Position numbers and translations under genes: made by a program
Assembly: GCA_018894435.1 (NCBI GenBank)
Contig: JAHIPI010000024.1
Coordinates: 1-47,359, forward strand
Direction of reading: 5' to 3'
Origin: Candidatus Omnitrophota bacterium
GTDB taxonomy: Bacteria > Omnitrophota > Gorgyraeia > JAHIPI01
Length of the DNA: 47,359 bases
Shown: piece after piece, positions 1 to 47,359 of the stretch
How the letters are laid out: every line of letters starts with the position of its first letter
How positions within the stretch are numbered: the first letter of the stretch is position 1
The notes under the pieces: generated by a model
The model's database searches: none
Told to the model about the DNA's origin: nothing
The model's input: only the letters and a program-made list of their open reading frames with translations

Positions 1-63
1 ACCTACTTCGTTTTCTCTTAGTCTTACTATTCTTTCAAGTTTTTCTTTAAGTAATTTTTCCAT
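1..63 (-). CDS. Partial gene, N-terminus only
   Basis: An ATG at 61-63 on the minus strand is preceded by a good ribosome binding site (AAAGGAG, about 7 bases upstream). It opens a frame of 21 codons, rich in Lys, Glu, Arg and Leu, that runs off the left edge of the window. The start MEKLLKEKLERIVRLREN looks helical. It is too short to identify. Confidence 0.55.
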   Translation of the reverse strand, partial: MEKLLKEKLERIVRLRENEVG

Positions 64-30271: not shown

Positions 30272-33200
30272 TCAGCCATTAGCAAACTTTCTTTCCTTAA
30301 TCCAGCAATATAAAACAGGGACCAAAATAAGATTGGATAATGTCGCCGTAACAAGGCCTCCCACGGTAGGAGCGGCCATCGGTTTCATGATTTCGGAGCC
30401 GGTGCCGGTAGACAGCATGACCGGGAGAAGAGCAATGATAGTCGTCGTGGTAGTCATCATTGCAGGCCGCACTCTCAATAACCCGCCCTCTATCACGGTA
30501 GCTCGTATTTCAGCCACTGTTTTTGGCATCTTGTTCTTGAATAAATCATCCAAGCATGAAACCAATACCACCGCATTATCCGTCGCTACGCCAAATAAAG
30601 CAATAAAGCCCACCCATACGGCGGTTGAGAATTTGAAGCCTAAAATGAATAAAAGTATAATACCACCCATGAGCGATACTGGAATGCCGGTGCTGACTAC
30701 AGCTAGGGAAGTAAAGGAATTGTTGAACGCTACATAGAGAAGCAACAATATAATGGCTAAACATATAGCTAAGGATGGGATCAGTTTTTTACGCGATTCC
30801 ATTTCCGACTCAAACTGGCCTGACCAGCCGATATAATATCCCGGCGGAAGATCGATCTTCCCGCTTTTTATCGCCTCGTTCACGACTTTCTGCGCGGATT
30901 TTACAAAATCCACCAGCCCTACGACGTCCTGGTTAACATTTATGAATATGCGCGCATACGGCAGAGTATTTTCCGATTGAATCATAGACGGCCCCGTAAC
31001 CTTCACCAATTTTGCTACCTGGCTCAAAGGCACCTGCTCGCCCATCATACTCGAAACAAATATTCTTTCCAGAGCCTCGGGCCGATCCCTTAACTCACGC
31101 ATATATCTTACTCTGACGGGATAGCGCTCTCTTCCTTCTACCGTCGTAGTAAGGTTTTCTCCGCCGATAGCGGTCATAATAATATCCTGAATGTCATCTA
31201 TCCTTAATCCGTAGCGGGCGGCCTTTGCTCTGTCTATCTCAATTTCAAAATAAGGCAGACTGCCGAAACGTTCGGCAAAAGGCGAAACCGCGCCTTTAAC
31301 TTTGCTTACTATTTTTTCCAATTCTATGGCTATCTCTTCTATCTTTTTCAAATCCGATCCAAAAACTTTGATGCCTACCGGCGTCTGAATTCCCGTCGCC
31401 AGCATATCGATGCGGTTTCTGATGGGCTGTGTCATTATGGGGCTTACGCCGGGTATCTCTGTCTTTTCCTGAATTTCCCGTATCAACTTCTCTCTTGTCA
31501 TTCCCCTCCGCCACATCTTTTGCGGTTTCAAATGAATAATCGTCTCGAGCATTATTATGGGCGCCGGATCGGTTGCAGTTTCTGCGCGGCCTAATTTTCC
31601 TACAACCCATTCAACCTCATTGGGAAATTTCTCCTTTATTATCATATCCTGCGTTTTTAAGACTTCCTGTACCTGCGTCAAAGATGCTCCGGGTAATAGA
31701 ATGGGCATGAAGAGCAGGTCCCCTTCATTGAGCGGAGGCATAAATTCCTGTTTCATCGAGACGGCCAATATGCCGCCTATAAGTAATACCGCAAGAGCAA
31801 TTAACACAACGGTCTTTTTGCGGTCTAATGCCCACTTTATAGCAGGTTTGTATATCTTAAAAAGAAATCTGGAAGTAGCGTTATCTTCGGCTAATCTCAG
31901 TTTTCCCCTTAATAAATAATATGACAACGTCGGCAGCAAAGTTAATGCGATAAGCGCGGCGCCGAACATGGCAAACGTCTTTGTGAACGCAAGCGGCCTG
32001 AATAATTTTCCCGCCTGGCCTGTCAATACAAAAACCGGGATAAAGCCGACTATTGTCGTAAGTAGGGCAAACAAGACGGGCCTGCCTACTTCCTGGGCAG
32101 ATTTAATGCACACTTCAAGGCGTTCCTCAGCGGGCAGTTGAGGCAGGCCTCTTTCGTTGCGGCGTTCGGCGATTTTGCGGTACATATTCTCTACCAAGAC
32201 GCAGCCGGAATCAACCATAACGCCGATGGCGATTGCTATGCCGCCCAAAGACATGATATTGGCATCGACCCCTATCTGCCGCATTAATATAAAAGCTATT
32301 AAGACCCCTATCGGAAGCACAATGGATATGATGATACTGCCCCAGAAATGGAGCAGGAATACCGCAATGACAAATATGGTAATAATTATTTCCTGAATTA
32401 ACGCGCTGGTTAATGTGCTGATGCACCTTTTAATAAGGCCGGTGCGGTCATAGAAAGGCACGATTCTGACTCCGGGCGGCAATCCCACTTTTAATTCTAC
32501 GATCTTCTTTTTTATATCATTAATCACTTTTAACGGATTCTCTCCGTAGCGCATCAGGACAACGCCGCCGGTAACCTCTACGCCTTCTTTATCCAATGCC
32601 CCTCTTCTGAATTCCGGCCCCAAAGTAACAGCGCCGATATTTTTTATATAAACGGGCGTACCCGCGTGGCTTGATATGACTATATTTTCAATGTCCGTAA
32701 CGTTTTTAATGAAACCGACGCCGCGAACTATATATTCTACCTGCCCCTCCTCAAAGACCTTGGCCCCTACGTCTATATTGGAGCGCTTGACCGCTGTCAG
32801 CACATCCATTAATCTTATGTTATACGAAAGCAATTTATTGGGATCGACGTCTACCTGGTACTGCTTGACATAACCGCCAACGGAGCCTACTTCCGAAACA
32901 CCCGGAACAGCATTTAATTGATACCGCACATACCAGTCCTGCAGGGAACGCAGCTGGGATAAATCGTATTGGGAGGCAATAAGCGGATTTTTATCTATAG
33001 GACATAAACCCGGCTTATCGTAAGATTCCTGGGGATGGTCGGGACAATAGTAACCGTTTTCTACGGTATACCAAAAGATCTGCCCTATGGCCGTGGCATC
33101 TGGGCCTAAAGAGACCATTGCCCCTTCGGGCAAACCGGCGGTAGCAAAATTAAGCCTTTCCAGAACGCGGGTTCTCGCCCAATAGTAATCGACATCCTCT

Positions 33201-33493
33201 TTGAAAATGAGATAGACCATGCCGATGCCGAAACCCGATGAGGAGCGTATAACTTTTACGCCCGGTGTGCCCAAAAGGCGGGTGGTAAGAGGGTAGACCA
33301 CCTGGTCTTCGACATCTTTAGGGCTTCTCCCCGGCCAATCGGCGAAAACGATGACCTGCAGTTCACCGATGTCAGGGATCGCGTCAATTGGCGTATTTTG
33401 TATCGAAAAGATGCCCCATATGATTATGAGAGCGAATGCCGAAATTACTAAAAAACGGTTCTTTAGACATGTCTCTATTATTTTGTCTATCAT
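30272..33493 (-). CDS. cusA: CusA/CzcA-type RND heavy-metal efflux transporter
   Basis: This 1073-residue inner-membrane RND proton antiporter exports metal ions through a tripartite pump. It has the usual 12 helices with two large periplasmic loops. Typical landmarks are PIDAIPDIGELQVIVF, the helix 4 region IAIAIGVMVDSGCVLVENM and EFMPPLNEGDLLFMP. Met-rich sites and the neighbouring CusB-like adaptor favour Cu(I)/Ag(I) over Zn/Co. Residues about 146-176 form an added loop with C150-P-D-H153 and C164-P, resembling a small heavy-metal-binding module, absent from E. coli CusA as I recall it. It follows the adaptor gene by one base. Confidence 0.93.
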   Translation of the reverse strand: MIDKIIETCLKNRFLVISAFALIIIWGIFSIQNTPIDAIPDIGELQVIVFADWPGRSPKDVEDQVVYPLTTRLLGTPGVKVIRSSSGFGIGMVYLIFKEDVDYYWARTRVLERLNFATAGLPEGAMVSLGPDATAIGQIFWYTVENGYYCPDHPQESYDKPGLCPIDKNPLIASQYDLSQLRSLQDWYVRYQLNAVPGVSEVGSVGGYVKQYQVDVDPNKLLSYNIRLMDVLTAVKRSNIDVGAKVFEEGQVEYIVRGVGFIKNVTDIENIVISSHAGTPVYIKNIGAVTLGPEFRRGALDKEGVEVTGGVVLMRYGENPLKVINDIKKKIVELKVGLPPGVRIVPFYDRTGLIKRCISTLTSALIQEIIITIFVIAVFLLHFWGSIIISIVLPIGVLIAFILMRQIGVDANIMSLGGIAIAIGVMVDSGCVLVENMYRKIAERRNERGLPQLPAEERLEVCIKSAQEVGRPVLFALLTTIVGFIPVFVLTGQAGKLFRPLAFTKTFAMFGAALIALTLLPTLSYYLLRGKLRLAEDNATSRFLFKIYKPAIKWALDRKKTVVLIALAVLLIGGILAVSMKQEFMPPLNEGDLLFMPILLPGASLTQVQEVLKTQDMIIKEKFPNEVEWVVGKLGRAETATDPAPIIMLETIIHLKPQKMWRRGMTREKLIREIQEKTEIPGVSPIMTQPIRNRIDMLATGIQTPVGIKVFGSDLKKIEEIAIELEKIVSKVKGAVSPFAERFGSLPYFEIEIDRAKAARYGLRIDDIQDIIMTAIGGENLTTTVEGRERYPVRVRYMRELRDRPEALERIFVSSMMGEQVPLSQVAKLVKVTGPSMIQSENTLPYARIFINVNQDVVGLVDFVKSAQKVVNEAIKSGKIDLPPGYYIGWSGQFESEMESRKKLIPSLAICLAIILLLLYVAFNNSFTSLAVVSTGIPVSLMGGIILLFILGFKFSTAVWVGFIALFGVATDNAVVLVSCLDDLFKNKMPKTVAEIRATVIEGGLLRVRPAMMTTTTTIIALLPVMLSTGTGSEIMKPMAAPTVGGLVTATLSNLILVPVLYCWIKERKFANG

Positions 33494-33494
33494 A

Positions 33495-34871
33495 TTACTT
33501 TCTCAATGTCGGTGCGGGGGGTGTTTTTTCTTCTTCTGTAGTCAGCGCGCCACCGTAAGCGCCGCTTATTCCTCCGCTTAACTGGCTTTGCGAATCTATC
33601 AAGAAATTTGATTTGGTTACGACTTTGTCGCCTTCTTTTAGACCGCTTAAGACGGGATAAAACTTCTGTTCCTGGTCGTCGACTTCAGCGCTTGCCTCAG
33701 GGCCGAGTTTTACTTTTTTGCCTATAAAAGCGCCTCCCCCGATATCCACGTAAACTATCTTCCGCGCGCCCGTATCCAAAACCGCGTCTTTAGGAATGGC
33801 TAAAGTCATGTGCGAACCATCAGTATTCACATACATGCTTTCTATAATTACATCGGCATACATCTCCGGCTGCAGCTTCCTATCTTTATTATCGGCTTCT
33901 ATCCTTATCTTCGCGGAGCGGGTCATCGGATTGATTACGGGACTTATTGACTTTATCACGCCGTCAAATCTTTCGCCCGGATAAGCCGTAGTAGTTATTA
34001 AAACGCCCTGCCCTACTTTTATCCATCCCAGTTCATATTCATAGATATCCGCGTATACCCACGCCTTTTCCTCCGGCAATACTAAATTCATCTGGGCTAT
34101 TCCCTCTTCCTCCAACGCTCTTATCTCGTCATCGCCCATTCCGAGAAGCCTCAATCTGAATTTCGATTTTTCAACAAGGTCGTCGGCCCTTTTTATGACG
34201 CCCTGGTCAGAACTATTTTTCACCTTCTCGCGCGTCTCAAGGGCGGTAAGGAATTCTTCTTGTGATACGGCTAACTCCGGATCAAATGCCACTTTGCCCA
34301 CAGTGCGTATAAGCTTGGAAAGGTGGCGTTTTATTATTTCCTCAGTCTTAACGCCGGCTAATTCTATCTGTTCGGGGCTAAGCTTAACTCTTGAAAGGAC
34401 TTCTCCGCCCACCGGCTGATCATCCGCCTCTTCATATACAGGGATAAAATCCATGCCCATAGAATCTTTCATGGGAACTTCCGATGTAATAGCGGGATTC
34501 ATCGGGTTGCGGTAATATAAGATTTTCCGCTGGACTGTTTTTTGTGTCTTTTTGGCCAGGGGCGTTGTCTTTGCCGTGTCTTGCGGTTCTATCTTCTTAA
34601 GTGGCTTTTTGCAGACCGGGCAATTCATTGGCTTATCCGTCTTCATAATAAAAGAGTGGCCGCCGCAAATACATTGCGTATCCGGTTTCCCCTCGTCGCA
34701 ATGCGGGCAATGGCCTTCTTCCCTTACTCCACAGCCATAATACGCTTCTGTCGTTTGCGGTGTTTCGGTCCTTAGCGGTACTTCTTTGGCAACCTGTTCC
34801 TGCCCAGTTTTTTTCGCGCAACCTGACGCAGCAAATAGAAGCACCATAATTAAAACGATGATTTTCCGCAT
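33495..34871 (-). CDS. cusB: CusB-type periplasmic adaptor (lipoprotein) with metal-binding N-terminus
   Basis: This 458-residue membrane-fusion protein links the RND pump to the outer-membrane channel. A lipoprotein signal ends in AASGC (Cys18). Residues about 46-93 are Cys/His-rich (CGVREEGHCPHCDEG, then CICGGHS, then CPVCKKP), resembling zinc-ribbon or metal-binding knuckles. Residues about 117-147 match the heavy-metal-binding domain common in CusB proteins (YYRNPMNP, then MKDSMGMDFIPVY). Barrel-sandwich and beta-barrel domains follow, with VWVYADIYEYELGWIKVGQ-like features. The start at 34871 has AGGGGAGGG upstream. Confidence 0.9.
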   Translation of the reverse strand: MRKIIVLIMVLLFAASGCAKKTGQEQVAKEVPLRTETPQTTEAYYGCGVREEGHCPHCDEGKPDTQCICGGHSFIMKTDKPMNCPVCKKPLKKIEPQDTAKTTPLAKKTQKTVQRKILYYRNPMNPAITSEVPMKDSMGMDFIPVYEEADDQPVGGEVLSRVKLSPEQIELAGVKTEEIIKRHLSKLIRTVGKVAFDPELAVSQEEFLTALETREKVKNSSDQGVIKRADDLVEKSKFRLRLLGMGDDEIRALEEEGIAQMNLVLPEEKAWVYADIYEYELGWIKVGQGVLITTTAYPGERFDGVIKSISPVINPMTRSAKIRIEADNKDRKLQPEMYADVIIESMYVNTDGSHMTLAIPKDAVLDTGARKIVYVDIGGGAFIGKKVKLGPEASAEVDDQEQKFYPVLSGLKEGDKVVTKSNFLIDSQSQLSGGISGAYGGALTTEEEKTPPAPTLRK

Positions 34872-34886
34872 AAAATACCCTCCCCT

Positions 34887-34974
34887 ATCCGCCTTCGCCG
34901 AATACTTCCGCCTACGCCACATTGCTTTCGCGCGTGGCTTCGTCGGACAAGTATTGTGTTTGGCTTCGGCGGAT
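34887..34974. repeat. Long imperfect palindrome (MITE/REP-like) between cusB and the channel gene
   Basis: Outer arms 34887-34906 (ATCCGCCTTCGCCGAATACT) and 34950-34974, and inner arms 34907-34920 and 34934-34947, can fold into an 88-bp imperfect cruciform. The TTCGGCGGA core resembles dispersed palindromic repeats seen in uncultured bacterial genomes. It may act as an intra-operon attenuator or an mRNA-stability element. Confidence 0.55.
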
Positions 34975-34980
34975 GTCGCC

Positions 34981-36264
34981 CTAAAAAATATCTGCAGGGC
35001 TCCACAAATCCGTACCTACTGCCTCTTCCAGGTCCGCCTTTGCTGTTTCCAGTTCAAAAATTGTCTTATAGTAATCCAGTTTTATATCCAAAAACATTCT
35101 CTGGCTGTCCAGAAGATTCAAAAAGTCCACCTGCCCCGCTTCATAGCCCGTAAGAGAGGCTTTAAGCGCCTGCTCTGCCTGCGGGATAAAGGACGTCTCA
35201 AATGTTTCTACCAGCTTTTTGTATGATTCCGCCTCGGCATAAGCGTATTTTACTTCAAAAAGCGCCATATTTTCCATCGTATTGTAATCCGCGCGTATCA
35301 TATCGAGTTCTGATTGTTTTTCTCTGACTCCCGGCACCTGTTTCTCCATGAACCATATGGGGATGCTGACGCCCAGCATGCCTTTCCATCTGCCGCTTGC
35401 GTCACTGGCTATCATTTGCTCAAATTTGCCGGAGAGATCGGGTAAAAATTCATTCCACGCAAGCATATAGGCAGTTTTGCCCCTTTCCACGGCATATTGA
35501 AACGCGCGAAGTTTCGGCCGGTATTCCTTGGCCGCCGCAAATAGTTCGCTAATGGATTCCGCTACATCTTTTCTTTCCAAAACGTCCTCAATGCGTAATC
35601 CCTCATCCGGATCTTTATTTAAAAGTATGTTCAATTTTGCTTTGGCAATCTGAAGTTTCTGATCCAACAAAATCAGTGAATTGTCTACCTTAGCTATTTC
35701 CACATCCGCTTTTAAAACATCCTGCTGGCTTCCCTTATTAACCGAATAGCGCGCCGCCGCGCTTCGCGCAAACTGTTCCAGGATGGCTTTGTTCTCATCG
35801 GTCACACCCTCGGCTTTTTCCAGATACCAGATTTCAAAATATGCCGATTTTACCCGCGCTATTATGCCGCGCTCTTTCTCGCGGTAATTTTCATACGAGA
35901 TCTTAGCGTCTTTGGATGCGATCTGCGAACGGAGTAAAAGCTTTGTAGGAAACGGCATTTTTTGGGAAATCGCCCAGCTCTTCATCCCTTTTCCGGCTAC
36001 TCCCGGAACACCTGCGCGCATTTTGTCATAGATAAATTCTGCGGTAGGATCATCGGGCATAAGTTCCTGGGATACTTTTGTTTTCGCTGCTTCGTAGTTT
36101 TTCTTAGCGGCTAAAATCTCGGGATTGGCTCTAAGCGCTTCATCTATGGCCGCTCTTAATGAGAGGGGTGGTTCTTCGGCATAGGAAATTAAGACATTGA
36201 CGCAAGCAAGCATTGAAAAAAGAAGAACACATAAGGATAATTGCACGCCGTGTTTTTTCTTCAT
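34981..36264 (-). CDS. TolC-like outer-membrane efflux channel (CusC role)
   Basis: This 427-residue outer-membrane factor has a signal peptide (residues 1-29, ending ISYAEE), followed by the helical and beta segments of the TolC/CusC fold (two repeated halves, with SLRAAIDEALRANPEILAAKKNYEAAK at the start of the first). Such proteins form trimeric channels that carry ions from the RND/adaptor complex to the outside. Its place directly before cusB, separated by the palindromic repeat, and the shared orientation support a CusC role. The YHS-domain gene ends 11 bases upstream. Confidence 0.88.
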   Translation of the reverse strand: MKKKHGVQLSLCVLLFSMLACVNVLISYAEEPPLSLRAAIDEALRANPEILAAKKNYEAAKTKVSQELMPDDPTAEFIYDKMRAGVPGVAGKGMKSWAISQKMPFPTKLLLRSQIASKDAKISYENYREKERGIIARVKSAYFEIWYLEKAEGVTDENKAILEQFARSAAARYSVNKGSQQDVLKADVEIAKVDNSLILLDQKLQIAKAKLNILLNKDPDEGLRIEDVLERKDVAESISELFAAAKEYRPKLRAFQYAVERGKTAYMLAWNEFLPDLSGKFEQMIASDASGRWKGMLGVSIPIWFMEKQVPGVREKQSELDMIRADYNTMENMALFEVKYAYAEAESYKKLVETFETSFIPQAEQALKASLTGYEAGQVDFLNLLDSQRMFLDIKLDYYKTIFELETAKADLEEAVGTDLWSPADIF

Positions 36265-36274
36265 CGCGATATGT

Positions 36275-36604
36275 TTATTCTTTCTCTTTGTTTATTATAT
36301 CTATATATTTCTGCGGGTCTTTTTTGAAGTCATCTATGCACATAGGGCAGCAGAAATTATATATTTTACCCTCATAGGCATAGGTGGCTTTTGTTTTTTC
36401 GTCTATCTTCTCGCCTGTAACCGGACATATTGTATTGCCGACATCGACCAGTTTTGTTTCCTGAGTCTTGCTATGGCCGGGATCCATATGGCCGGCATGA
36501 ACATTGCCGCTCTCTTCCGTGCCGCACATCGCAGCATAAGATGCATTTTTAAATCCGAATATTGCTACCCCAACCAACAATGCTATCAACAGCTTTTTCT
36601 TCAT
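36275..36604 (-). CDS. Secreted YHS-domain protein (metal binding)
   Basis: This 109-residue protein has a signal peptide (residues 1-24, ending NASYA). The mature protein has a His/Met-containing linker (GNVHAGHMDPGHSK), then a YHS domain with CPVTGEKID, then NFCCPMCIDDFKKDPQKYI. YHS domains bind Cu, Fe or other soft metals and often accompany copper-handling genes. It is the first gene downstream of the csoR gene and lies 11 bases before the channel gene, so it is probably a periplasmic metal scavenger or donor for the pump. The ribosome binding site GAGGAGG is strong. Confidence 0.85.
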   Translation of the reverse strand: MKKKLLIALLVGVAIFGFKNASYAAMCGTEESGNVHAGHMDPGHSKTQETKLVDVGNTICPVTGEKIDEKTKATYAYEGKIYNFCCPMCIDDFKKDPQKYIDIINKEKE

Positions 36605-36668: not shown

Positions 36669-36956
36669 TTAACCTCTTGTTTTTCTGAACCTTGATATTA
36701 ACTCCATAATCTCATTTATTTTTTTCTGCTTCTCTCCCGCGGATTTCCCCTTTAAGGCGTTTACAACGCAGCTATCCAAGTGCTTCTTGAATATACTATC
36801 TTCTATGCGGTATAATGCGCCGATAACCGAATGAATCTGGGTAACAATATCGATGCAGTACCTCTTTTCTTCGATCATCTTTTGAAGGCCACGGACTTGG
36901 CCTTCAATCTTTTTTAAAAATTCTAATTGCTCCTCATGGGTAGTAACCTGTTTCAC
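36669..36956 (-). CDS. csoR: CsoR/RcnR-family metal-sensing repressor
   Basis: This 95-residue all-helical repressor of the CsoR/RcnR/FrmR family shows the sequence GQVRGLQKMIEEKRYCIDIVTQI, then KKHLDSCV. The Cys in RYC, the His in KHL and the Cys in DSC (about residues 34, 59 and 63) are the canonical Cys-His-Cys ligands of Cu(I)-sensing CsoR proteins. Metal binding releases the repressor from G-tract operators. The start is GTG at 36956 with AGAGGTGG upstream. Its own promoter contains such a G-tract, and the efflux genes it probably controls lie directly downstream. Confidence 0.92.
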   Translation of the reverse strand: MKQVTTHEEQLEFLKKIEGQVRGLQKMIEEKRYCIDIVTQIHSVIGALYRIEDSIFKKHLDSCVVNALKGKSAGEKQKKINEIMELISRFRKTRG

Positions 36957-36975: not shown

Positions 36976-37005
36976 AGTATACCATACCCCCCTACCCCAT
37001 GTCAA
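36976..37005 (-). promoter_or_regulatory. csoR promoter with embedded G-tract operator
   Basis: On the minus strand TTGACA (37000-37005) and TATACT (36976-36981) are 18 bases apart. The spacer reads TGGGGTAGGGGGGTATGG, containing the T-A-flanked G-runs typical of CsoR/RcnR operators. Repressor binding there would block RNA polymerase directly. Confidence 0.78.
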
Positions 37006-43059: not shown

Positions 43060-43788
43060 TTATAATAATGGTATTCCTATAATTAATCTAGCCTGCAGGT
43101 CATCGCTTCTTTTATTGAGCCCCGCTACCGCTCCAAGCGATACCCAGAATTTATTCGTTGACCATGATACTGTAGGGCCTGCGTAATATTTTCTGCCGGC
43201 ATAATTGCCCTTTGATTCAACTCCGACCTTAAACTGCGGGATTATGCTGTAACTAATACCTGCGGCGTATTCATGCTCTGTCTTGCCGCCGGACGCTAGC
43301 TCCTGCTTTAGTATAAAGTTATAGGCAAAGTTAAAATCCCCCATATCTTTAGCAAGTATGACTTTACCTTCCAGTACATTATGCTTTTCCAGATTATCGT
43401 TCCTTATATATTCAAGGTAGAGCAGCGTATCAAGCGGCAGCTTATTCTTCTCAAAGAGCCTATATCGGGTCCTGATCTTAAACCCATCATATTCAAATGT
43501 ATTAGATGAAGCGGTATTGGACTGCTTAAATTGCTGGTACATGCTTATATCCCAGTGGTCCGTTATTCCGTATTCCAATTCAACCCAGTGCTTCCAGGTG
43601 TTGGGCTTTGCCCTCTCTATATTCTTCTGCTCCTCCGTCAAATAGTATTCAATCTCCGCATGGCCATTAGGCATGGTTTGGTATTCGTACGTCCAGACAT
43701 AGCCCCTTCTATCCGCACCTGCTTCCTTCGCCATACCTAACACTAATAACAACGCTGCCGCCGAAACTGCAATCTTACTCTTCCACAT
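43060..43788 (-). CDS. Fur-box-preceded beta-barrel-like outer-membrane protein
   Basis: This 242-residue protein has a signal peptide (residues 1-25, ending GADRRG). The mature part alternates hydrophobic and polar residues and is rich in Tyr, Trp and Gly, with strands such as WVELEYGITDHWDISMYQQF, LPLDTLLYLEYIRND and FWVSLGAVAGLN, and ends in a hydrophobic residue (IGIPLL). This is the look of an 8-12-stranded outer-membrane barrel. A perfect palindromic Fur box lies 26 bases upstream, and the FeoB gene is 99 bases downstream, so a role in iron entry is plausible. No TonB box or plug domain is present. Confidence 0.75.
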   Translation of the reverse strand: MWKSKIAVSAAALLLVLGMAKEAGADRRGYVWTYEYQTMPNGHAEIEYYLTEEQKNIERAKPNTWKHWVELEYGITDHWDISMYQQFKQSNTASSNTFEYDGFKIRTRYRLFEKNKLPLDTLLYLEYIRNDNLEKHNVLEGKVILAKDMGDFNFAYNFILKQELASGGKTEHEYAAGISYSIIPQFKVGVESKGNYAGRKYYAGPTVSWSTNKFWVSLGAVAGLNKRSDDLQARLIIGIPLL

Positions 43789-43813
43789 ATTACTACTCTC
43801 CTTTTCTCTCTTT

Positions 43814-43838
43814 GTTATTGAAAATCATTTTCAATAAC
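43814..43838 (-). promoter_or_regulatory. Fur box upstream of the outer-membrane protein gene
   Basis: GTTATTGAAAAT at 43814-43825 and its complement at 43827-43838 form a perfect 25-bp palindrome about a central base. The ATTGAAAAT half-sites match the Fur-box pattern. Binding of Fe-Fur here should repress the gene under iron-replete conditions. Confidence 0.85.
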
Positions 43839-43852
43839 TTTTTAAAAAAATA

Positions 43853-44293
43853 TTACCCTTTGCACTTCCTGCATATGCCGAATATTTGTAATCTGTGTTT
43901 CAATGGTATGAAGCGATTTTCTTTGGCCAGTTTGTCTTGAAGTTTCTCTATCTCCGGTTTCATCACTTCTACATAACTCCCGCATTTCGTACAGATAAGG
44001 TGGTCGTGGTGCCCATGTTCATATTTATGCTCAAACCTTGCTATACCATCACCGAAATCGATTTCGTTACAAAGACCTGCCTCTTCCAGAAGCTTCATCG
44101 TTCGGTATACGGTAGTATAACCTATGGCAGGGTTTTTCTTCCTCAGTATCTTATGCAGTTCATCTGCGGAGAGATGTTTTTCTGTCGAGAGGAACGCCCT
44201 TAGCACTTCCTCTCTCTGCGGTGTATACCTAAGCCTCTTTTCCCTGATAAACTTTTCTAATATCTCAAACTCTTTTCTCACGCTGTTATCCAT
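43853..44293 (-). CDS. fur: Fur-family metal uptake regulator
   Basis: This 146-residue Fur protein has an N-terminal winged helix with RYTPQREEVLRAFL and IGYTTVYRTMKLLEEAGL, then the dimerisation and metal domain with HHDHLICTKCGSYVEV (sensory His and a zinc CxxC) and a C-terminal CRKC. It represses iron-uptake genes when Fe2+ is bound. It sits directly upstream of the Fur-box-preceded gene and has its own palindromic box overlapping its -10, so it is probably autoregulated. The start codon is uncertain: ATG at 44293 has AGAGG touching it; a GTG at 44281 is better spaced. Confidence 0.93.
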   Translation of the reverse strand: MDNSVRKEFEILEKFIREKRLRYTPQREEVLRAFLSTEKHLSADELHKILRKKNPAIGYTTVYRTMKLLEEAGLCNEIDFGDGIARFEHKYEHGHHDHLICTKCGSYVEVMKPEIEKLQDKLAKENRFIPLKHRLQIFGICRKCKG

Positions 44294-44427: not shown

Positions 44428-45360
44428 TCAATTGCGCTTTCGAGGAACCCACACCGCCCCTTTGCGTTGGGGCGTTTGGGTCTTCTTTTCTTGCGGATGC
44501 CTTATGAGTTTTTTAAAAAAATCTTGATATTCTTTGAAAAGCGGGTCATTATTCAATTGCCGTAATTCTTCCGCTTTTCTGTAGTCATCCCAACTTTTAC
44601 CATATTCTTTCTTTTCGTAATACGCGACTGCCCGCTCAAAGAAATAATAACTACTATTCGGGTCCAGCTCAATTGCTTTGCTGCATTCGGATACGGCGCT
44701 ATCGTATTGACCCGTATTGCAAAGCATAATTCCCAAGCGGCCATATGCTTCTGCATTTTTTGGATTAATTTCTATGGCCTTTCTAAAATCAGCGATGGCC
44801 TGATCGTATAATTTTTTCTTGGCATATAGATCCCCCCTGTCCAGTAATGCTCTGATATGGTCCGGATCTATTTCCAGCGCCTTTGTATAATCGCTTATAG
44901 CTTTATCGCCTAAACCCTTATTTTCATACGCTGCCCCCCTGCCATCGTAAGCACGGGCGTATCGTGGATCTATTTCTATTGCCTTATTGTAATCGGAAAT
45001 GGCCTGATCATAGAGGCGCTTTACGCTGTAGGCATTGGCTCGCCCCATGTATGCATTAATGTATCTCGGATTTAGTTCTATTGCCTTTGTAAAGTCAGTA
45101 ATGGATTCGTCATATTTACCCTTTTGCTGATAAATTAGCCCCCGAGTAGCATATGATTTAGCTAAAGCCGGGTCTAGTTCGATCGCTTTATTAAGATCGG
45201 TTATAGCCTGGTCATAGAGGCCCTTTTTTAAATAATCAAGTCCTCTATTGTGATAAAATACCGCATCCTTTGGAGTTTTTTCATCAATGTCTTCCTCTGC
45301 AGCCAAAGAATACGAAATAAAAGAGCATGCTATCAGAATTAAAATTAGTATCTTCTTCAT
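44428..45360 (-). CDS. Secreted TPR-repeat protein
   Basis: This 310-residue protein has a signal peptide (residues 1-20, ending SLA-AE) and seven or eight tandem 34-residue TPR units from about residue 31 to 275, each with the pattern G-x-Y-x-Q-A-I-x-D-x-x-K-A-I-E-x-D-P. TPR arrays bind peptides or assemble complexes, here in the periplasm or at a membrane. The C-terminus is polar and basic. It follows the spermidine-synthase-like gene by 19 bases; no specific partner can be named. Its repetitive DNA is due to the protein repeats. Confidence 0.9.
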   Translation of the reverse strand: MKKILILILIACSFISYSLAAEEDIDEKTPKDAVFYHNRGLDYLKKGLYDQAITDLNKAIELDPALAKSYATRGLIYQQKGKYDESITDFTKAIELNPRYINAYMGRANAYSVKRLYDQAISDYNKAIEIDPRYARAYDGRGAAYENKGLGDKAISDYTKALEIDPDHIRALLDRGDLYAKKKLYDQAIADFRKAIEINPKNAEAYGRLGIMLCNTGQYDSAVSECSKAIELDPNSSYYFFERAVAYYEKKEYGKSWDDYRKAEELRQLNNDPLFKEYQDFFKKLIRHPQEKKTQTPQRKGAVWVPRKRN

Positions 45361-45379: not shown

Positions 45380-47359
45380 TCATAAAATAAGATCGACCGC
45401 TAAATAGCACAGCGCCCCGATAATCAATCCGGCAGAGAAGCCGTGTGTAAGAGAAATCGCAATCGCGCCGACCGATCCAAGCACCGACGCGACACCGTTA
45501 ATGCCGTACATCCATGGGATAAAGTGCCCTAAACCATTTTCATACATTAAATTCATGGCTGCTGGAAATGGGATTCCGAGCAGAAATCCTAAAGGAATCA
45601 AAAAAGACGAAGCTATGAGGCTTTTGACTATAACGGTATTCGCTAAAAAAGCGTTTAGTATAAACTTGTGTACAAAAGATATGGCTATTACCGATATAAA
45701 TATAAGTAGAGCCGCCATTTTTATCCTCTTCATGTTATCTTTAAAAAGCCTTTTGCCGTAAAAGCTCCCTGCGCCCATGCCGGATAAAAGCGATCCTAAA
45801 AGTACGGCAAGCGATATTGTCGGTGAGCCGAGAAATAGCGTAAGTTTTTGAAAAAATGCGATCTCTATCAGCATAAATCCTGCGCCGAGCAGCACAAATA
45901 AGACAATTGAATTGACGATCTTTATATTGATCCTCATAAATATGGCCGGCAGCACTATTATCAATACACAGACCGACAATACTACCTGCAGAAGAAATAG
46001 GACTTCGGCAGTGAGCCCTTTTTGATGTTTAAAGAAGAACGGTTTATCATCTTTAGCCGGACTTATGTCCGTGCGCACGCGCTCTATTATTTTATTCAAG
46101 TTAGGCTTTTCTTTTAACAAATCCGCCATGGTCATATTAAAAAATGCTGTGTCGGAACTCATATCCATACCATGCCCCATCTTAGTGTGATCCATCTTAG
46201 TGTGATCCATCTTAGTATGATCCATCGGCGGCGTAGCAGGCGCCTGCGCATGCCCCATCTTAGCATGATCCATATGATCCATTGGCGGCGACTGAGAGGT
46301 TTCTACTGAAGGCATCACGGCAGCGGTTTGTTTATCGGCATATTCTTTCAATTGCCGTTCATACGGCATGTAAGAGTAGTAAACATCGTCGCCTTTCAAT
46401 ATCTGCTTTATTTTATAGTTATCTTCCATCTCCTCATAGGTAAAAGGTTTTTTCTTCAACACCACTACCGGATTCATGCCTTTCCCGATTACATAAAAGC
46501 AGTTCATCGCATCTTGATGCTTTATACCTCTTTCTCTAAGCGCTGTCAATAAAGTCGTGATAAAACGCAGCGTTTCGGGCGCATGATGAAAGACGCCTAT
46601 CATCCTGCCTTCGTCCGTCAAGTGATCAAGATACTCCCCGACCGACTCGACAGTGAATAGATAATTCTCCGTCAGAGCAAATCCTTCGAAACTCCTTGAT
46701 GTCTTTGTGAGCGGAATCGTAATCATTATGATGTCATATTTTTTGTCGGAACCCCTTACGAAACTCCTCCCTTCGTTAACGACTATATCTACATTTTCAA
46801 AATCCGTGTATATTCCTCCGTTATAGTCTCTGTATTCCTTAACAATGTCAACGAAATCGGGATTGATTTCCACGCCTGTAATATCTTTTACGCCGGCAAG
46901 CAGTCCAAGCAAAATCTCCCGGCCGCCGCCAGGGCCGATAACAAGCAAGCTGTCTTTTTCGTAATTTTTCAAAGGGAGAAAAGGCAGCCCGCCCGAAAAA
47001 CCCAGGGTTAACGCCGATGCCAATCTGCCGGCTTTCTTTAAATCACCGTCAAACCTATACATCGCCGTGCCTGCCGCTCCGTCTATAAAAAGATGCATCG
47101 CGGCATTGTCATCTTTGTACGCCACTAAATCAGTGCGGCCGAACGCGCTCCATTTGCTTTCCACAAGCTCCATATTAGAATCCGGATCGCTTAACATCCC
47201 GTACAAGTCCTTATTGGGATCCTCGGCTATGGGGACTTCGTTTAAGACCGGGAAGGACAGGTCTGCGAAAAATAAAAGTATGCATATGACGGACGCTATC
47301 ATTGGGATCTTAAACGACAATATTTTTCTGCCGCCTGCAAGAAAAAAAGATGCGGCCGA
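45380..47359 (-). CDS. Membrane protein with spermidine-synthase-like domain and His/Met-rich insert (5' end outside window)
   Basis: The frame is open to the right edge, so the first part lies beyond the window. Numbered from the codon at 47320, a membrane segment (about 5-25) leads into a Rossmann methyltransferase-like domain: LLVIGPGGGREIL (125-137), GVEINPDF (149-156) and VNEGRSF. It resembles spermidine synthase, but the catalytic DSSDP-like segment is replaced by MITIPLTKTS, so aminopropyl transfer is doubtful. Residues 347-387 are a low-complexity insert of M-D-H-T-K units. About six membrane helices follow (430-646). Fused spermidine-synthase/transporter-like proteins of this kind are common but uncharacterised. 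The insert could bind Cu or other metals. Confidence 0.8.
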   Translation of the reverse strand, partial: SAASFFLAGGRKILSFKIPMIASVICILLFFADLSFPVLNEVPIAEDPNKDLYGMLSDPDSNMELVESKWSAFGRTDLVAYKDDNAAMHLFIDGAAGTAMYRFDGDLKKAGRLASALTLGFSGGLPFLPLKNYEKDSLLVIGPGGGREILLGLLAGVKDITGVEINPDFVDIVKEYRDYNGGIYTDFENVDIVVNEGRSFVRGSDKKYDIIMITIPLTKTSRSFEGFALTENYLFTVESVGEYLDHLTDEGRMIGVFHHAPETLRFITTLLTALRERGIKHQDAMNCFYVIGKGMNPVVVLKKKPFTYEEMEDNYKIKQILKGDDVYYSYMPYERQLKEYADKQTAAVMPSVETSQSPPMDHMDHAKMGHAQAPATPPMDHTKMDHTKMDHTKMGHGMDMSSDTAFFNMTMADLLKEKPNLNKIIERVRTDISPAKDDKPFFFKHQKGLTAEVLFLLQVVLSVCVLIIVLPAIFMRINIKIVNSIVLFVLLGAGFMLIEIAFFQKLTLFLGSPTISLAVLLGSLLSGMGAGSFYGKRLFKDNMKRIKMAALLIFISVIAISFVHKFILNAFLANTVIVKSLIASSFLIPLGFLLGIPFPAAMNLMYENGLGHFIPWMYGINGVASVLGSVGAIAISLTHGFSAGLIIGALCYLAVDLIL
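46181..46225 (-). repeat. Three 15-bp tandem repeats encoding MDHTK
   Basis: The unit CTTAGTGTGATCCAT occurs three times in a row (46181-46195, 46196-46210, and 46211-46225 with one change). It encodes M-D-H-T-K repeats in the spermidine-synthase-like protein, with looser copies nearby. Repeat number could vary by slippage. Confidence 0.85.

Follow-up and report, generated by a model that had tools for sequence, protein, structure and literature searches.

The spermidine-synthase-like (SpdSyn-like) membrane protein encoded at 45,380–47,359 on the minus strand is interpreted here, tentatively, as a copper-linked, periplasm-facing, methyltransferase-like membrane protein that carries a putative copper-binding loop and takes part in how this Candidatus Omnitrophota bacterium responds to copper. 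It probably has a role in copper handling that has gone unrecognised. The copper link is supported by the finding that both members of its close clade that were found are encoded near the sole csoR gene of their genome, one of them inside the same operon. The window, that is, the whole stretch of 47,359 nucleotides that was analysed, is the entire contig C24 of an assembly (G000) of 1.57 Mb in 96 contigs.

The gene is an open frame that runs off the contig edge, so that 659 residues are present and the 5' end is lost. Residue 1 of the window protein aligns to residue 187 of the frame of its closest relative, L021, whose ATG is frame residue 14. Because the alignment begins at residue 187, the TTG listed for the window frame is not a real start, and about 173 residues, from TM1 to within TM6, are therefore missing; when the window's own assembly was queried with the N terminus of L021, the window itself was the only match. 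The part present comprises a SpdSyn/methyltransferase-fold domain (46,325–47,227, minus strand; residues ∼45–345, bounds set by eye) that is predicted to be extracytoplasmic and in which GPGGGRE replaces GGGDGG, a His/Met insert of 44 residues (46,157–46,288, minus strand; residues 358–401), and seven C-terminal transmembrane (TM) helices, TM8–TM14 (45,386–46,009, minus strand), assigned from hydropathy, Lys/Arg counts, and predicted models. The SpdSyn stop is followed after 19 bp by the start of a TPR protein (44,428–45,360, minus strand) that has six TPR stretches and an N terminus resembling a signal peptide by eye, and the two genes are probably co-transcribed.

Topology and motifs were compared in a set of 34 aligned rows, which are open frames of at least 480 residues with E values up to 1e-20 to L021; an L021 duplicate was left out, as were two open frames that belong to a single fusion protein from genome G012. 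Averaged hydropathy gave seven TM helices before the domain and seven after it, with two broad peaks split by hand, and the predicted model of L021 also has a 7 + 7 arrangement. The models of the window protein and L021 are of moderate confidence (mean pLDDT 63 and 61, respectively, with five sequences per alignment). In all 34 rows Lys and Arg lie mainly on the N-terminal side of the membrane (8 versus 0 in the part of the window protein that is present), which, by the positive-inside rule, argues that the domain and the insert are outside the cytoplasm; both are predicted to face the periplasm. The bias is carried by topology loops L6-7 (mean 2.35) and L8-9 (mean 3.24), beside the helices that flank the domain, and the mean count in L1-2, an outside loop, is 1.12. 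These counts leave out the domain loop, which has 3.21 Lys/Arg in its 30 flanking residues, and use segment bounds set by hand.

The insert, PPMDHMDHAKMGHAQAPATPPMDHTKMDHTKMDHTKMGHGMDMS, contains 7 His, 9 Met, and no Cys in its 44 residues, and its DNA includes a tandem repeat with a 15-bp unit that codes for MDHTK units (46,177–46,226, minus strand; 3.3 copies with 97% match by TRF). The initial annotation, made from the sequence of the window, had described a His/Met-rich insert of this kind between the domain and the membrane helices, and the description was borne out: the insert reaches 15 His + Met per 40 residues, a density attained in none of 2000 shuffles of the protein (maximum 13), and it has four MxHxxM motifs as compared with a mean of 0.04 and a maximum of 2 in 2000 shuffles, together with one full MxxMxHxxM ("MDH") motif. 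At the DNA level, the MDHxKM pattern has four sites in the 1.57-Mb assembly, every one inside the insert. Among 704 other open reading frames of at least 60 residues, none reaches 11 His + Met per 40 residues or two MxHxxM motifs. Of these, 274 lie within 8 kb downstream of 54 csoR-type promoter elements that are described below and 430 in the wider loci L065–L096; copper operons of the class therefore do not, as a rule, carry such repeats. Residues 348–401 have pLDDT values below 50 in the predicted model. A similar His/Met linker had also been attributed to the YHS-domain protein of the window (36,275–36,604, minus strand), but the likeness is weak: that protein, which contains a short HAGHMDPGH stretch, has at most five His + Met per 40 residues and no MxHxxM.

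The MDH motif MxxMxHxxM is reported to mark the copper proteins CopA and CopB, with 5–14 copies in CopA (PMC3056050), and a disordered His/Met region is described as required for the function of PcoB in copper resistance (PMC12509749). Because the insert has the motif of CopA/CopB and PcoB needs its His/Met region, we take it as a periplasmic copper-binding loop and infer, by analogy, that it may bind copper. As in proteins of this type, MxxMxHxxM/MxHxxM repeats occur in a region that is predicted to be extracytoplasmic and modeled with low confidence. In contrast to them, the repeat is carried by a membrane protein of SpdSyn fold whose one Pfam match is a weak hit to Spermine_synth, with none to multicopper-oxidase or outer-membrane-barrel families, and it contains one full MDH motif rather than the several of CopA.

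The repeat was present in the window protein and absent from all relatives scanned, and the insert is therefore not a conserved core of function. The loop of L021 at the same position, SYIPHIEQQTILHRHEGELHEFSMF, is His-rich and lacks the repeat; with 8 His + Met per 40 residues it ranks second after the window protein (15), and the other scanned homologues have 4–7. The initial annotation held that absence of the insert from close homologues would speak against it, and that absence is what was found for the repeat, but not for the His-rich character of the loop, which L021 shares. The repeat does look like an expansion by slippage. A rival reading takes the protein to be an ordinary membrane SpdSyn-like protein with no copper role, placed near the cus genes by chance, and the insert to be a neutral outcome of slippage in a loop that varies. 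It is unlikely in our judgment but has evidence on its side: the tandem repeat with its 97% match and its absence from the scanned homologues agree with it, whereas the composition of the insert, which follows the copper MDH motif, and the His-rich loop in a relative encoded inside a csoR-cus operon argue against it. The genomic setting of the two genes bears on this reading as well.

In the window, a csoR-YHS-cusCBA operon lies on the same strand as the SpdSyn gene. It encodes a CsoR-type repressor (36,669–36,956, minus strand) that is the sole PF02583 match in the genome and has a Cys ... His-x3-Cys arrangement, which we take to be the ligand pattern; the YHS-domain protein; a CusC-like outer-membrane efflux protein (OEP; 34,981–36,264, minus strand); a CusB-like adaptor (33,495–34,922, minus strand); and a CusA-type RND pump (30,272–33,493, minus strand). 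The pump matches TIGR00914 with 1041.5 bits (cut-off 701.45), no other match in the assembly exceeds that cut-off, and Escherichia coli CusA is its best match in the PDB. Between the end of the SpdSyn gene and the start of csoR are 8.4 kb, which hold nifS/nifU, a dehydrogenase, a STAS protein, DtxR-FeoA, FeoB, a protein without a Pfam match, Fur, and the TPR protein. This distance, with iron genes in it, is compatible with neutral slippage and chance proximity. On the other side, csoR is single-copy both in this genome and in that of L021 (G399; 74% complete), and the sole csoR is near the SpdSyn gene in both, at 8.4 kb in the first and in the same operon in the second; by a post hoc estimate, a sole csoR would fall within 8.4 kb by chance in ∼1% of placements in 1.57 Mb.

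L021, which is also from Candidatus Omnitrophota and comes from the same class as the window genome, is 50–56% identical to the window protein. Its contig encodes, in order, a PII protein (start at 64), the SpdSyn-like protein (410), an ICMT/PEMT-type methyltransferase (2801), CsoR (3454), and a cusC-like frame (from 3740 to where the contig ends); the distances between successive genes are −17, +42, −4, and +1 bp. The cusC-like fragment has no Pfam match and no CusC match in the locus comparison, and its name rests on its look and its place. One type of PII protein, PII-NG, has been described next to pumps of the CzcABC type (PMC7726332). At the head of the L021 operon (L021 positions 3–30, plus strand) is a copy of a 28-bp promoter/G-tract element that precedes csoR in the window (36,978–37,005, minus strand), the two copies differing by one base. 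The 28-mer, TTGACAT(A/G)GGGTAGGGGGGTATGGTATA, has by eye a σ70-like −35 and −10 and an 18-base spacer that contains a G tract. CsoR/RcnR operators are described as G-tract elements (PMC3902906), and the 28-mer does not fully match the type 2 CsoR/RcnR consensus of the literature.

With up to three mismatches, the 28-mer was found at one site each in 56 of 384 genomes of the class, and the reversed-pattern control gave 0 among the matches listed. All sites except those of the window and L021 genomes were followed up (54 sites, loci L162–L215). The next gene on the same strand is csoR in 52 of the 54, at less than 200 bases in 50 and less than 690 in the other two, and in many of them cusC, cusB, and cusA then follow. 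Of the two sites without csoR, one has 33 bp of sequence left and the other (L168) is followed by a response-regulator-like frame within the 1,221 bp available. The position of csoR next to 52 of 54 sites argues that, as judged from sequence, the element very probably serves as the promoter/operator of csoR in the class and that the L021 SpdSyn gene is under it; control of the L021 operon by CsoR is predicted on this basis. In the window genome the one site found is that at csoR, the SpdSyn gene's own promoter being off the contig. A search of DNA folding of the promoter element found nothing. Shorter forms of the element were less specific: a 14-base core with three mismatches had four sites in the window as compared with 2.69 expected, which is no commoner than chance, and the reversed control of a 16-base core with two mismatches matched in genome G002. 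For these reasons the long element alone was used as evidence.

When 37 family queries were run against both strands behind the 54 other elements, none matched a SpdSyn gene there, and each of the 37 recovered the two positive controls. The sequence available behind each element ranged from 33 bp to 15.1 kb and was at least 5 kb in 36 of the 54 and shorter in 18. L021 is thus exceptional, 1 of 55 elements besides that of the window, which favors the reading of neutral slippage and chance proximity and counts against the copper link. Also against that link are the small number of clade members (two), the occurrence of the repeat in one protein, the intervening feoB and fur of the window, and a 10.6-kb stretch around the Chloroflexi relative L024 in which no metal genes were found. 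Relatives of the window's Fur (74% and 53%) also occur downstream of csoR-cus operons in L163 (∼12.9 kb past the element) and L191 (∼13.5–15 kb), the latter with a relative (59%) of the protein encoded at 43,060 in the window as well, hinting at a possible iron/copper island; in the window these two genes are in the stretch 43,060–44,293 (minus strand).

In the tree of the 34 rows, the window protein groups with L021 (100/100) and then with L024 (100/99). No further members of the close clade were found in the 384 class genomes, where 22 matches had E values up to 1e-30 and those beyond the close pair were 28–34% identical, nor in two overlapping draws of 384 genomes of the phylum, in which G399 was not among the matches; some membrane SpdSyn-like match was present in 121 of 384 genomes of one phylum draw. 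No relatives were found in a viral collection, and PHROGs gave no match at E 0.01. Plasmid relatives were matched in 20 records (23–33% identity), those annotated being named spermine/spermidine synthase or methyltransferase, and no annotated csoR or cus genes were seen in the five of 20 plasmid neighborhoods viewed (H1, H2, H4, H8, and H18; 28–31% identity). Plasmid H1 has a cytochrome oxidase assembly gene nearby, and H2 has, as well as a ccdA-tlpA pair, an M56 peptidase next to a regulator annotated as "BlaI/MecI/CopY family"; both are too weak to serve as evidence.

A copper link of the whole family was considered and is not supported, as 32 wider loci (L065–L096; flanks up to 10 kb, many ended by contig ends) gave no CsoR match. 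In one of these, L094 (G002, contig C41, 1282–10,623), a radical-SAM-like gene and a distant SpdSyn paralogue are immediately preceded, on their own strand, by cusC, cusB, and cusA (CusA 73%), an adjacency that may be chance or a second case; L068 and L089 have RND genes with CusA at 22–26%. The pair of a distant SpdSyn-like membrane paralogue and a radical-SAM-like protein, the latter presumably AmrS-like, is seen both in L094 and in L095 (G001, contig C99, 648–4176), and both genomes belong to the family of the window genome. The SpdSyn-like membrane protein of L019/L092 (G012, contig C52) is a 1287-residue open frame with a C-terminal HxHxDH motif, like that of a metallo-β-lactamase-fold hydrolase.

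The soluble domain has the SpdSyn fold. Foldseek returned spermidine synthases and aminopropyltransferases as the best matches of both models (E 3.6e-7 for L021 and 1.6e-4 for the window protein), and the solved relatives in a sequence-profile search were aminopropyltransferases, mostly spermidine synthases (best 3o4f, E 7.5e-9). Scores to curated models are below the cut-offs: 18.2 bits (window) and 21.4 (L021) to PF01564 (cut-off 22.9), 27.9 for the window protein to TIGR00417 (SpeE; cut-off 249.55), and 32.9 for L021 residues 16–283 to NF002956 (PRK03612; cut-off 472). The acid of GxG(D/E)G is gone in all 34 rows (Gly in 30, the window protein among them, and Ala in 4), whereas the acid after the second strand, which has a role in ribose binding, is kept (Glu in 32 and Asp in 2). 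In DSxDP, the catalytic-acid motif of spermidine synthase, the first acid is Asp in two rows and Thr in the window protein, and the second is Asp in 24 rows, Leu in the window protein, and Val in L021. The catalytic acidic motif is thus missing, as the initial annotation had stated, but the loss of the motif-I acid in 34 of 34 rows makes that part a family trait. Judged from these alignments, the domain keeps a SAM-type nucleotide-binding pattern without the aminopropyltransferase residues.

Loss of the GxG(D/E)G acid has a precedent in NHMT (AN4663), which is described as a fungal protein of the endoplasmic reticulum with seven TM helices and a SpdSyn-like domain lacking this D/E, and which methylates the copper-binding His1 of LPMOs; the acid is needed for dcSAM binding in spermidine synthases, and its loss was used as an argument that NHMT is a methyltransferase rather than a spermidine synthase (PMC10349129). 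The window family resembles NHMT in having seven TM helices, as seen in the L021 model and the averaged hydropathy, followed by a SpdSyn-like domain without the motif-I acid, and NHMT too has a copper link, through its substrate. We consider it quite unlikely that the window protein is a bacterial counterpart of NHMT whose domain would methylate metal ligands, histidines or others, in copper proteins of the periplasm, with the insert bringing copper or copper proteins to it. The shared loss of the acid with retention of the second-strand acid, and an ICMT/PEMT-type membrane methyltransferase encoded in the L021 operon, are consistent with such a role. However, the acid is lost family-wide, in members without copper genes too; the 7TM sequence of NHMT is called unique to filamentous fungi (PMC10349129), and the likeness drawn here is one of published description; and any catalytic reading faces the difficulty of how SAM would be supplied beyond the cytoplasm. 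NHMT as described also lacks a C-terminal TM block and modifies secreted fungal LPMOs in the endoplasmic reticulum. A true membrane-bound aminopropyltransferase that makes polyamines is highly improbable and was rejected: the SpdSyn fold, the N-terminal TM region (in L021), and the weak speE matches recall NF002956/PRK03612 and SpeE enzymes, but the scores are far below the cut-offs, the catalytic and dcSAM-binding acids are lost, seven extra TM helices follow the domain, the domain is predicted to be outside the cytoplasm, and AdoMet decarboxylase (PF02675) has no match in the window genome (95% complete), although the L021 genome has one.

We return to the tentatively favored reading, that of a copper-linked, methyltransferase-like membrane protein. 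The metal-linked role put forward in the initial annotation gains most from the position of L021 in a csoR-cus operon headed by the csoR-type promoter element; the MDH-type motifs, the presence of a Cus/CsoR operon on the contig, and the predicted location outside the cytoplasm add to it. Of the two forms suggested for that role, copper transport has no direct support, and a transporter was rejected as there is no transporter family match in Pfam or NCBIfam. Metal-dependent transfer is possible as methyl transfer alone, because the aminopropyl residues are gone and the window genome has no PF02675. No SpdSyn-like protein in a copper operon was found among the best matches listed in a literature search that had most subscription papers outside its scope.

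As part of the copper response of the bacterium, the protein would be an inner-membrane protein of 7TM + SpdSyn-fold + 7TM architecture with its soluble domain and insert toward the periplasm. A flexible periplasmic loop, grown by expansion of the 15-bp repeat, would bind copper and could capture or buffer it beside the membrane, near the site at which the Cus pump acts; we infer copper capture or buffering at the membrane to be the most economical role. If the SpdSyn-fold domain is catalytic, methyl transfer would be the most likely reaction, by analogy with the action of fungal NHMT on a copper-binding histidine. A more elaborate proposal, which we regard as a long shot, would make the protein a bacterial parallel to fungal NHMT: a SpdSyn-fold methyltransferase in the copper regulon that would face the periplasm, modify metal-binding side chains of copper proteins, and carry its own copper-capturing loop, its 14-helix membrane part perhaps also transferring the methyl donor to the other side.

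Regulation can be approached directly through the shared csoR-type promoter, and the nearly invariant 28-bp element is a ready-made copper-regulon marker for the class. If the domain faces the periplasm and one branch of the family serves copper, the names spermine synthase and spermidine synthase would mislead, and the function of an extracytoplasmic SAM-fold domain would become a testable question.
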